From: Terriglobus aquaticus
Lineage (GTDB): Bacteria; Acidobacteriota; Terriglobia; Terriglobales; Acidobacteriaceae
DNA: 64,000 nt
Assembly: GCF_025685415.1 (NCBI RefSeq)
Contig: NZ_JAGSYB010000001.1
Location: forward strand, 310,001 to 374,000
Reading direction: 5' to 3'
A program made the translations under genes and the position numbers. This document shows positions 20,221 through 31,453 of the stretch, piece by piece. Every line of letters begins with the position of its first letter. The first letter of the stretch is position 1. Under the pieces are notes generated by a model. That model worked only from the letters and a program-made list of their open reading frames with translations, was not told the origin of the DNA and did not search any database.

Positions 20221-21738
20221 TTAGGTTCGCCGACGGCGCTGGTGGGTGCTCGGAATCTGCATGTCGTCGCGGTACTTCGCCACGGATCGCCGCGTCACCT
20301 GGATGCCTTGCTTCGCCAGTTCGGCGACCAGGGCATCGTCCGTCAGCGGCTTTGCCGGGTCTTCCTCTTCAATCAGCTTCTTTACTTTCTTTTTCAGCAG
20401 CATCAGGGGCAAATCGCCGCCCTCGGGCCCGTTCACGCCTTCGGTGAAAAAGAAGCGCAGCTCGTACACACCCTGCGGCGTATGCACGTATTTGTTGGAC
20501 ACGGCGCGGCTCACCGTGGACGGATGCACGCCGATCTCTTCCGCCACTTCCTTGATCATCATCGGCCGCAGCGCATCCACGCCACGCTCCAGGAAGTCGC
20601 CTTGCCTTCGCACAATCGCCTCACACGTGCGGACAATGGTGTTCTTGCGCTGTTCGATGTTCCGGAGCAATTGCACGGCAGACCGGTACCGCTCCTTCAC
20701 ATAGTCCTGCACTTCGCGGTCGGCGGTGCCTTGGCGCAGCATGCGGCGATAGCCCGCGTTCAGCCGCAACGCCGGCATGTCTTCCTCGTTCATCACCACG
20801 GCCCAGGCGTCTCCGCGGCGGGCAAAGGCCACGTCCGGCTCAATCAACCGCGTTTCATGGTGTTCAAACCGCTGTCCTGGGCGCGGGTCCAGCGTTCGTA
20901 TCACCGCAATGGCTGCCTGCGCTTGCTCGGGCGTGGCTCCCAGCAGGCGGCTCAATTCACGTATGTCCCGCTTCTGCAGCAGAGGCAGGAACTCCTGCAC
21001 AATCCGCATGGCCAGCCGGAGATGCAGATCTCGCGCGTCGGTTGACTCGTCACCGCCCTCTTCTTCCACCAGCGCCTGCAGATCGCGCAAGTGCATCGCG
21101 AGTTGCAGTTGCAGGCACTCGGCCAGGCTGCGCGCGCCTACGCCGATCGGGTCCAGCCCCTGTACGACCCCCAGCGCTTCACACGCCGCTTCGGTCGAGA
21201 TCGATAGATCACCTGACCCCGCGGTCAGCTCCTCCATCGAGGCAGTCAGATACCCGCTCTCTTCCAGGTTGCCGACGATCCACTCCGCCGCCGATCGTAC
21301 CTCCGGCCGTAACGACATCGAGCTCAGCTGCCACAGCAAGTGGTCGGTCAGCGTGCTCGGCTTGGTCAGGAAATGCTCAAAGGAGGGTGAATCGACATCC
21401 TCTGTCGAGACACCCCCACCCGTGCGATACCCGGGATCGAGGTAGTCCTGGAAGTAGCTTCCGAAATCGATCTCTTCGAAGGGGTCCTTCTCCGCGCGCT
21501 CCTGCTCGGCCGTCTTCTGCTCGGCAGACAGCTCGCGGTCGCCCTCACGGCCGGCCAGCTCATCCAGCGAAACTGACGTGTCGTCAATCTCTTCCAGCAG
21601 GGGGTTCTCCACCACCTCTGCGTTGATCATGTCCTTCAGTTCCAGCTTGTTCAAGGCCAGAACATTGACCATCTGCACCAGGCCTGGAGTGAGAACCTGG
21701 CGTTGAGAGACCCGCAGATGGAGCTTGGGCTGGAGCAG
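20221..21738 (-). CDS. rpoN: RNA polymerase sigma-54 factor, apparent CTG start
   Basis: Sigma-54 directs transcription from -24/-12 promoters together with AAA+ activators. From GTG 21678 the product lacks part of region I. In-frame codons upstream encode LLQPKLHLRVSQRQVLTPGL, which aligns with the conserved start of E. coli RpoN (LQLRLSQQLAMTPQL). No ATG, GTG or TTG lies between the upstream in-frame stop (21811-21813) and 21678. CTG at 21736-21738 sits 6 nt after AAAGGA (21745-21750), so initiation is probably at this CTG, giving 505 aa. A helix-turn-helix (KEVAEEIGVHPSTVSRAV) and the RpoN box RRSVAKYRDD near the C-terminus are intact. It follows lptB in the order also known from Proteobacteria. 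Confidence 0.93.
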   Translation of the reverse strand: MLQPKLHLRVSQRQVLTPGLVQMVNVLALNKLELKDMINAEVVENPLLEEIDDTSVSLDELAGREGDRELSAEQKTAEQERAEKDPFEEIDFGSYFQDYLDPGYRTGGGVSTEDVDSPSFEHFLTKPSTLTDHLLWQLSSMSLRPEVRSAAEWIVGNLEESGYLTASMEELTAGSGDLSISTEAACEALGVVQGLDPIGVGARSLAECLQLQLAMHLRDLQALVEEEGGDESTDARDLHLRLAMRIVQEFLPLLQKRDIRELSRLLGATPEQAQAAIAVIRTLDPRPGQRFEHHETRLIEPDVAFARRGDAWAVVMNEEDMPALRLNAGYRRMLRQGTADREVQDYVKERYRSAVQLLRNIEQRKNTIVRTCEAIVRRQGDFLERGVDALRPMMIKEVAEEIGVHPSTVSRAVSNKYVHTPQGVYELRFFFTEGVNGPEGGDLPLMLLKKKVKKLIEEEDPAKPLTDDALVAELAKQGIQVTRRSVAKYRDDMQIPSTHQRRRRT

Positions 21739-21744
21739 AACCGA

Positions 21745-21750
21745 TCCTTT
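21745..21750 (-). promoter_or_regulatory. ribosome binding site that decides the rpoN start
   Basis: On the minus strand this reads AAAGGA, 6 nt before the in-frame CTG at 21736-21738. It is the only strong Shine-Dalgarno sequence in frame-compatible position near the conserved N-terminus of RpoN. Confidence 0.6.
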
Positions 21751-21928
21751 TACAGCGCAACCGAGAGATTGGCAGTGAAGTTGCTTACTGAAGACGAGTG
21801 TACTGCGCTGTCAGTTGGTTCGCATGCCGGCGAGCCCACGGCTTTGCGGTCCCAATGGTTCCGTTTCAGGTCGCCGGCGACAGTCGCGCAGTACGCCGTG
21901 CCGCCCGGTCCGCGCTGCGTCCTGGCGC

Positions 21929-22654
21929 TTACATTTGGAAGTTGTTGCCCAGGTAAATGCGCTTCACTTCTGGATCTCGACCCAGTTCGCCCGGTGTCCC
22001 CTGGCGAAAGATCCGACCCTCCGCGATGATGTACGCCCGGTCTGTCACACTCAGCGTTTCGCGCACGTTGTGATCCGTAATCAGGACACCAATGCCCTGG
22101 TTCTTGAGAGAAAAGATGATCTCCTGCAAGTCCAGAACGGCAATGGGATCGATCCCGCTGAAGGGCTCATCCAGCAGGATGAACGATGGCTGGATGCACA
22201 GGCAGCGGGCAATCTCGACCCGTCGGCGTTCGCCACCGGACAGCGCATACCCCCGCGTTTCGCGGATGTGCGTCAGGTTCAACTGCTCCAACAGCTCGCC
22301 GGCGCGCGCGCGGCGCCGCTCCCAATTACCGGGTTGCGTCTCCAGGATGGCCAGGATGTTTTCTTCCACCGTCAGCTTGCGAAAGACTGACGGTTCCTGC
22401 GGCAGGTAACTGATCCCGTGATCGCGGGCGCGCAGGTACATGGGCAGCCGCGAGATGTCTTCCTTGTCCGCGAGAATGCGCCCGGCGTCCGGCCGGACCA
22501 AGCCGACAATCATGTAGAAGCTGGTGGTCTTTCCGGCGCCGTTCGGTCCCAATAGTCCGACCACCTCACCTTGCTCAATGCACAGGTCAACGCCGCGCAC
22601 TACCTGCCGGCCACCATAAGTCTTTGCGATACCTTCGGTCTGCAGTGTGCGCAT
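21929..22654 (-). CDS. lptB: LPS export ABC transporter ATPase
   Basis: The 241-aa ATPase powers extraction of lipopolysaccharide from the inner membrane with LptFG. Walker A is [10 protein letters not shown], the Q-loop region follows, the signature is [10 protein letters not shown], Walker B is [12 protein letters not shown] and the switch histidine is in [10 protein letters not shown]. Sequence and size (about 240 aa) are those of LptB rather than a generic importer ATPase. Its ATG overlaps the stop of the upstream LptC/A gene by 1 nt (TAATG), so the two are translationally coupled. Confidence 0.95.
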
Positions 22655-29077: not shown

Positions 29078-31453
29078 CTACGCCGTTAGCGACGGCGGCG
29101 CCACGCGCGGATCGACGCCCAGCGTCATGTTCGGTTCGGCACCAAGTGTGAACTGCAGATGTCCGCCCTGCAGCTCCTCGTGCGTCACCCACAGGCGGTC
29201 AAGCACTTTGCCGTTCAGCTTCACCTGCTGGATGTACTGATCGGTCGGCGCGTTCCGCTTCGTCTCGATGACGAGTTCGCGGCCATTTGCCTGCCGCACC
29301 CGCGTCGAGTCGAACACGGGCGCAGTCAGAACATAGGTCGCGCTCACCGGGTCCACGGCGTACAGGCCCATCGCCGCCATCACGTACCACGCGGACATTT
29401 GCCCGCAGTCCTCGTTGCCGGCCAGGCCATCGAAGTCGTTGTGGTACAGCGTGTCCAGGATCTGGCGCGTCCGCATCTGCGTCTTCCACGGCTGGCCCGA
29501 GTACGTGTACAGGAACACGATCGCGTGGCTCGGCTCATTGCCGTGCACGTACTGCCCGATGTAGCCCGACATGTCCGACACATCTTCGTTGCTGACGCCA
29601 GGCTCCTGCACAAAGAGGGAATCGAGCTTCTTATTGAAGCTGTCCCGTCCGCCGAACGTCTCGATGTAGCCCTTCGCATCGTGCTGCACAAAGAAGGTCG
29701 TCTGCCAGGCGTTCGACTCGGTGTAGTCGCGGTATGCATGCTTCGTTCCGCGCGGAAAGTGGCCGGTCGCCTTCGGATCGAAGTTGGGCGTCCACTCGCC
29801 GTTGCTCATCTTGGCGCGAATGAACTGCGTCTTCGGATCGAACAGATTGCGGTAGTTCTGCGACCGCTTACGCTGGATCGCCGCATCTTCCGCGTGGCCG
29901 GTCGCCTCCGCAACGTGCGCGCAGGCCCAGTCGTTGTACATGTACTCCACAGCCTTGCTTACCGACTCGTTCATCTTGTCGGCGGGGATGTACCCCAGCG
30001 TGCGGTAGAAGTTCAGGCCCATGTAGTCGTCATCCATGTTGCGCTTGCGCATCACTGCGTAGGCGCGAGACCAGTCGATGCCCGGCACCTTCTTCGTGCA
30101 GGCCTCGGCCATCACGCTGGCGGAGTGATACCCGGTCATACAGAACGTCTCGCCACCCTGCAGCGGCCAGATCGGCATGCCGGCCGGGCTCTCTTCGGCC
30201 ATGCGCACCAGGCAGTTCACCATGGGTGCGACGCGCTCCTGCTGCCACAGTGTGAAGCTCGGGTGCAGCGCGCGGAAGGTGTCCCACAGCGAGTAGGTGC
30301 TGAAGTTGTGCTGGCCCGCGTCTACCGTATGCACCTTCTGATCCATGCCCCGGTACTGTCCGTTCACGTCGTCGGCCAGCGTTGGTGCGCACATCATGTG
30401 GTACATGGCGGTATAGAAGATCGTCTTGCGCTGCGTGTCGAAGCTGTCCACCTGAATGCGGGCTAGTTCCTTGTTCCACGCCGCCTTAGCGTTGGCGCGG
30501 ACGCCTTCAAAGTCAAACGCCGGCACTTCTGCCTTCACGTTTGCCAGCGCATTTTCCGCGCTCACCATGCTGATGCCGACCTTGACCAGCACCGGTCCGC
30601 TGGTGTCCGGATACACGGCTGCATGCAGCACGCGACCCTTTGCAGAAGTGCCGTCCACCGGCTTCAGATCGCTGTAGAGCTGCACCTTCTTGAAAGGCCG
30701 CTCGAACACCATGGCGAAGTAGATCTGCCGCGTCGGCGCCCACACGTGCATCACGCGGCCGCCGGTCACGGTGTCATTGCCGACCACGTTCACCTCGGCG
30801 CTGCCAACGCGGTTCTGCTTCAGATTTTCCGGCGTCAGCTCGCCGTTCTGCAAACCCTCGGTTTCCTCACATCCATGCAGCAGATCCACCAGCAGGTGCG
30901 CCGGATCTCCGCCCTGCGGGAAAGTGTACCGGTGCACGCCGACGCGCTCGGTCGTGGTCAACTCCGCCAACACGCCGCTGGCCAGCTTCACGGAGTAGAA
31001 GCCGGGCTCCGCATGTTCATCGGAATGCGAAAACCGCGTACGGTAGCCGGTGTCCGGCTGGTTCTTGTCCCCGGGCAGCAGCTTCACCTCGCCCAGCCTC
31101 GGAACAACAAGGAAGTCCAGCAGGTCCGCCGCTCCCGTTCCGCTCAGGTGCGTGTGGCTGAATCCCATAATCGACGTGTCTGTCGTGTAGTACCCGGAGC
31201 ACCAATCCCAGCCGTGGTTGCCCGTGTCCGGGCTCAACTGCACGGCGCCAAACGGTACCGTTGCTCCTGGATAGGTGTGGCCGTGACCACCCGTTCCGCA
31301 GAACAGGTTCACATACTTGGTCAGGTCCGCGCTTCCCTCCACGCCGGCTTTGTGCAGAGGCATGTGCCGTTCACGCTGCGCCTTTTGCGCCAGCAACGTG
31401 TTGCCAGCCGCCAGAGAACTCAATTGCAGAAACGTACGCCGGTTCAAGGTCAC
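29078..31453 (-). CDS. GH92 family alpha-mannosidase, Tat-exported
   Basis: The 791-aa enzyme starts with a twin-arginine signal, [14 protein letters not shown] (residues 4-17). The GH92 hallmark [29 protein letters not shown]-type block occurs near residue 50 ([17 protein letters not shown]), followed by [10 protein letters not shown] and, late in the protein, [20 protein letters not shown]92 enzymes are Ca-dependent exo-alpha-mannosidases cleaving alpha-1,2, 1,3 or other linkages in glycan or mannan chains; linkage cannot be told here. The upstream NagK-type kinase (103-nt gap, same strand) suggests a sugar-scavenging unit. Confidence 0.92.

Follow-up and report, generated by a model that had tools for sequence, protein, structure and literature searches.

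Our analysis of a 64,000-nucleotide stretch of DNA from Terriglobus aquaticus (hereafter the window) indicates that rpoN, the gene for sigma-54, very probably starts at a CTG codon (21738-21736, minus strand) positioned by a Shine-Dalgarno (SD) sequence, and that this start would represent one state of an older weak-start arrangement. Directly readable in the sequences are the absence of a canonical start, the coding constraint, the conservation of weak starts, the strength of the SD and, apparently, two origins of CTG; initiation at the CTG itself is what we infer. A CTG start had been proposed in a preliminary description of this DNA, and it now draws support from the coverage of the activator-interacting domain (AID), from divergence by codon position, from SD pairing and spacing, and from the presence of CTG in three other species. 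The features concerned are the following.

20221-21738, minus strand: coding sequence of rpoN (sigma-54), 505 aa when read from CTG, with profile matches
21676-21678, minus strand: first in-frame GTG, the start under annotation limited to GTG, TTG and ATG, giving 485 aa
21736-21738, minus strand: CTG, the inferred start codon, 6 nt after AAAGGA; CTG likewise in L212, L213 and L214
21739-21741, minus strand: GTT, a rival start; most congeners have their TTG or GTG start at this aligned position
21745-21750, minus strand: Shine-Dalgarno sequence AAAGGA, with a duplex of -5.6 kcal/mol with the anti-SD
21811-21813, minus strand: in-frame TGA upstream, beyond which no start can lie, from reading of the frame
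21929-22654, minus strand: lptB-like ABC ATPase, the upstream neighbour, an open reading frame with an ATG start, used as start-codon control

The rpoN reading frame and its 5' end

The gene at 20221-21738 (minus strand) is the sole Sigma54_DBD match found by profile search in a genome of 99.99% completeness and 2 contigs. Read from CTG, the protein has the three Pfam domains AID (PF00309, 49.2 bits, covering positions 1-46 of 46), CBD (core-binding, PF04963, 177.1 bits) and DBD (DNA-binding, PF04552, 193.8 bits), all above cut-off, and it matches the NCBIfam model TIGR02395 with 380.6 bits (cut-off 277.35), the other NCBIfam sigma-54 models all being under their own cut-offs. Read from GTG 21678, the AID is cut to positions 17-46 and, with 22.4 bits, does not reach the cut-off of 23.8, so that of the two starts compared only CTG gives a complete AID. 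Region I of sigma-54 keeps RNA polymerase closed as long as no activator acts, and the loss of 20 of its residues under a GTG start, as had been predicted, is borne out by the length (485 versus 505 aa) and by the truncated AID. For the enhancer-binding ATPase partners of sigma-54, the genome has eight PF00158 matches of at least 137.8 bits and four more at 21-31 bits. Because a control search with this family was positive in 14 of 14 genomes, some of them without an rpoN match, the family alone is not specific and the weight lies on the high scores; from these eight matches, sigma-54 seems to be in use in T. aquaticus.

Rereading the frame, we found, as the preliminary description had it, no ATG, GTG or TTG between the TGA at 21813-21811 and the GTG at 21678-21676 (minus strand). 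Its coordinates for the SD also hold, with AAAGGA at 21750-21745, the spacer TCGGTT of 6 nt and then CTG at 21738-21736. In a comparison with 17 congeners, the divergence per site at codon positions 1, 2 and 3 is 0.188, 0.038 and 0.541, respectively, over the 20 codons between CTG and GTG, and 0.771, 0.755 and 0.693 over codons -20 to -2 before CTG; the former stretch thus diverges as coding sequence and the one upstream of it as unconstrained sequence. This divergence, together with an AID that is complete from CTG, agrees with the earlier assignment of the codons upstream of GTG 21678 to region I. The claim that the E. coli protein begins at the same distance stands within one residue, the window protein reaching 1 residue further out than E. 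coli RpoN.

Weak start codons at rpoN in three related genera

We collected 215 loci, which gave 171 distinct start regions; L215 (G348), whose match has no N terminus, was left out. As many loci repeat genomes of our G series, tallies count one locus per G genome, and the codon tallied is the canonical one nearest the conserved start. In 15 of the 93 genomes of the three genera, codons -1 and 0 are both canonical and the earlier was scored; in-frame ATG codons lying further upstream in 4 of the 93 (-6, -10, -22 and -29), or slightly downstream in L158 (+1) and L011 (+5), were not counted as starts. The genera are g1, which includes Terriglobus roseus and T. albidus; g50, which includes Edaphobacter lichenicola and a record named Granulicella rosea; and g80, which includes Granulicella mallensis and G. 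paludicola, and for which 28 genomes were searched and 27 were usable. Our search gave no rpoN match in G404 (g50) or G009 (g1), and g50 may have more members, since genomes were drawn evenly from the larger family. The 31 genomes from other genera of the family come from the better matches, about 270 further family genomes lying outside the tally.

ATG is absent from the homologous rpoN start in 92 of these 93 genomes. The starts are TTG in 12, GTG in 5 and CTG in 1 (the window) of the 18 genomes of g1; GTG in 35, TTG in 12 and ATG in 1 of the 48 of g50; and TTG in 18, GTG in 6 and CTG in 3 of the 27 of g80. Among the 31 genomes examined from other genera of the family, rpoN starts with ATG in 30 and with TTG in one, and ATG is found in all nine genomes from other families of the class. 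The single ATG start of the three genera (L127, at codon -1) has kept its SD (-7.2 kcal/mol) and is perhaps a natural reversion. The single TTG start outside them (L188, whose start region is that of L065) lies at codon 0 and possibly comes from a misbinned contig. A record titled 'Verrucomicrobia bacterium' (L072) carries a Granulicella-like rpoN locus, and its title looks mislabelled. ATG at the CTG codon in relatives would, along with a resequencing correction in the window, have counted against the proposal of the preliminary description, and none of the 18 g1 genomes has it; the start of congeners is TTG or GTG and in most lies one codon before. The codon before CTG in the window is GTT (21741-21739), and since most congeners have their start there, both the GTT and the CTG codons matter.

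CTG occupies the rpoN start in 4 of the 93 genomes, one of which (L212) is uncertain. The three other than the window (L212, L213 and L214), all Granulicella-like, read AAA CTG, with GAGG 6 or 7 nt before the CTG. L214 is the strongest case: an in-frame TAG lies two codons before CTG and therefore leaves AAA and CTG as the sole possible starts of the full protein. In L213, which shares its start region with Granulicella paludicola DSM 22464 (L092), the frame upstream of CTG reaches a stop after 30 codons without any canonical start. The weakest case, L212, may not initiate at CTG: it has in-frame GTG codons at -4, -17 and -25, the first overlapping the SD site by one base.

A tree was made of 101 RpoN proteins by a quick method, with the first six codons left out and with SH-aLRT as its only support measure; on it, CTG requires two changes, once within Terriglobus and once in the Granulicella-like clade. 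Two Terriglobus with TTG share a starred set with the window, and a starred clade amid TTG and GTG genomes holds the three Granulicella-like CTG genomes. From this tree, CTG appears to have arisen at least two times at rpoN, and both origins would stay if L212 were omitted. Over the 93 genomes the tree requires at least 12 start-codon changes, one of which involves ATG; separate counts give 7 for starts at -1 and 4 for those at 0, all these parsimony counts being minima without direction.

Shine-Dalgarno pairing and control genes

SD strength was taken as the best duplex upstream of the start with the anti-SD, with a threshold of -4 kcal/mol; the genome has a single copy of the 14-base string expected at the 3' end of 16S. 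The median is -6.8 kcal/mol for CTG starts (4 of 4 at or below -4), -7.35 for TTG (42 of 42) and -6.55 for GTG (96% of 46). ATG starts of the outgroup have a median of -3.95 kcal/mol, half of 30 being at or below -4, those elsewhere in the class -3.3 (44% of 9), and a control 60 nt upstream -2.6 (35% of 133). By these medians, therefore, weak rpoN codons accompany strong SDs here. The aligned SD spacing in the window is 4 nt for CTG in the AAAGGAGG frame and 1 nt for GTT. In the 74 genomes with a single candidate, spacing is 3 nt in 5, 4 nt in 7 and 6-12 nt in 57, a spacing of 1 nt occurs in none and two were scored at -2. A spacing of 4 nt is at the short end of this range and counts against CTG. 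Folding of six rpoN leaders revealed no common structure by eye.

Other genes of the same genomes served as controls. For the upstream neighbour (21929-22654), presumably lptB given its sequence and the lptB-rpoN gene order, 42 of the 46 in-clade named loci that could be resolved (2 others could not) have an ATG no more than 4 codons from the aligned start. In 30 clade genomes priA has 25 GTG starts, one of them with an ATG two codons upstream, and 5 ATG starts, and rpoN in the same 30 starts with TTG in 18, GTG in 10 and CTG in 2. As priA too keeps a non-ATG start, conserved weak starts are not peculiar to rpoN. At priA (window 54510, plus strand; L217-L246) the five ATG cases all belong to one genus, and the window has no real SD pairing. 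infC has a conserved ATT or ATC start (Ile-Pro-Pro) in all 30 clade genomes examined (L277-L306), mostly behind GGAGG, and 15 of the 30 have no canonical in-frame start upstream of it; that of T. aquaticus (L307) is ATT, likewise with no canonical start upstream. Because of infC, starts sensitive to initiation fidelity seem to be in use in this clade. As a further start control, rdgB gave no match in 80 named loci. A large gene at 31447 (minus strand) with a twin-arginine-like N terminus seems to have a TTG start with a strong SD; it is, we assume, glycosidase-like, and was left out as a control since that family has many paralogues.

Interpretation and comparison with known systems

In the mechanism that we propose, the initiator tRNA would read CTG as fMet, the AAAGGA would place the ribosome, and a full sigma-54 of 505 aa with a complete region I would result, in a yield lowered by weak pairing at the first codon position. 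In the older state, common to the three genera, the ATG of related genera would have gone and initiation would have settled 1 or 2 codons further downstream, at GTG, TTG or CTG, the strong SD bringing the ribosome to a weak start. A CTG start is a rare claim, since CUG gives 0.86% of the output of AUG and makes up 0.024% of bacterial starts, according to work cited in the excerpted text of PMC11497404.

One alternative is that translation starts at GTT 21741-21739, the homologue of the congeners' TTG or GTG start. The alignment speaks for it, as does sigR, for which, of the 34 Streptomyces species in the excerpts of PMC5472188, 32 have GTC and 2 have GTT, the GTT having been proposed by conservation; we nevertheless consider it improbable, because GTT would have an aligned SD spacing found in none of the 74 single-candidate genomes, and because L212-L214 have AAA in its place with CTG next again. 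A sequencing or assembly error hiding a canonical start at the GTT or CTG codon would need a difference of just one base, at 21739 or 21738, in the one genome of the species that was read. This is more improbable still: that genome is 99.99% complete in 2 contigs, the CTG state recurs in three other genomes, one of them in a single contig, and the error rate, which we estimate at about 1e-5 per base, is below the frequency of CTG (4 of 93). The least probable is that translation from GTG 21678 gives the real product or a second one, a shorter sigma-54 that lacks the beginning of region I and is partly free of activators. That GTG is canonical and the frame is open after it; the median SD pairing at its place across the clade is -6.1 kcal/mol, with 59% of the 93 genomes at or below -4, so that pairing alone cannot exclude an internal start in relatives; and removal of region I leads to activator bypass in vitro. 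Yet the same source (PMC4551910, in its excerpted text) has little bypass in vivo; pairing in the window is only -3.7 kcal/mol, as against -5.6 at CTG; the place has GTG in 62, ATG in 9 and no start in 22 of the 93 genomes; and the AID would be truncated to below its cut-off and the 20 codons before GTG are under protein constraint. We also considered a dual product of long and short sigma-54 and put it low, as the window has no SD-like pairing there and the +20 start is not conserved.

With CTG as the start, its meaning can still be read in two ways. We infer that the CTG start keeps sigma-54 output low and that low output was selected, and the span of weak starts over three genera makes limited sigma-54 more plausible than one codon would. 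The weak starts could instead be functionless drift, tolerated through the strong SD, an account that rivals the regulatory part only and to which we give considerable weight, if somewhat less than even. It fits with priA, likewise GTG in 25 of 30, and with the general compensatory trend in the excerpts of PMC5622118, where GUG and UUG starts have stronger SDs, because of which a weak start with a strong SD need not mean regulation. Against drift, at least 12 changes include one with ATG, whereas 245 of 320 switching GUG/UUG starts go to AUG by our sum of the counts in those excerpts; at that share, at most 1 of 11 changes involving ATG has a binomial probability of about 4e-6, a comparison that is indicative only because its baseline comes from other taxa with shorter branches. 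Returning to the regulatory reading, we tentatively suggest, while regarding it as doubtful, that sigma-54 output in the three genera could be set at translation initiation, with ATG lost and kept away, and that two lineages could have moved to CTG and so made the whole sigma-54 regulon depend on IF3 and the fidelity of initiation, as sigR does in Streptomyces. Starts that are not ATG, GTG or TTG are discriminated against by IF3 (PMC5472188, excerpted text); CTG versions of rpoN would then be repressed by it, and IF3 perhaps gates the rpoN CTG.

Among CTG starts, rare as they are, few have a demonstrated importance; in the present case a single global regulator seems to have reached CTG twice. 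The natural series of ATG, GTG, TTG and CTG offers a test of whether the start codon tunes a sigma factor, and annotation from ATG, GTG and TTG alone would trim 20 region I residues from RpoN. In the titles and abstract openings of those papers that were listed from the open-licence literature we found no rpoN CTG start, no sigma-54 GTG or TTG start and no Terriglobus sigma-54 start, and that literature yielded no paper on CUG starts with Acidobacteria.

The closest precedent is Streptomyces sigR, whose GTC start is conserved with a strong ribosome-binding site and repressed by IF3, and which is over-produced from a canonical start codon (PMC5472188, excerpted text). rpoN appears to resemble sigR in anatomy: in both, a sigma-factor gene has a non-canonical start that follows a strong ribosome-binding site and that canonical-only prediction would miss. 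As to conservation in relatives, the homologous rpoN start is not ATG in 92 of the 93 genomes, and it is CTG in 4, one of them uncertain. Unlike sigR, which has GTC and an anti-sigma partner, rpoN encodes sigma-54 and has CTG, with TTG or GTG in relatives and apparently two origins of CTG. infC, the gene for IF3, whose ATT and ATC starts are described in the same excerpts, resembles rpoN in combining, in these very genomes, a non-canonical start with a strong SD; it is autoregulated through its product, whereas rpoN would be a target only. The GUG- and UUG-start genes with compensating SDs in the excerpts of PMC5622118 also combine a weak start with a strong SD, but they switch mostly to AUG, and at rpoN 1 of at least 12 changes involves ATG. 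rpoN would thus join the known genes with a non-canonical start, what is new being that CTG recurs and that ATG is almost absent in three genera.
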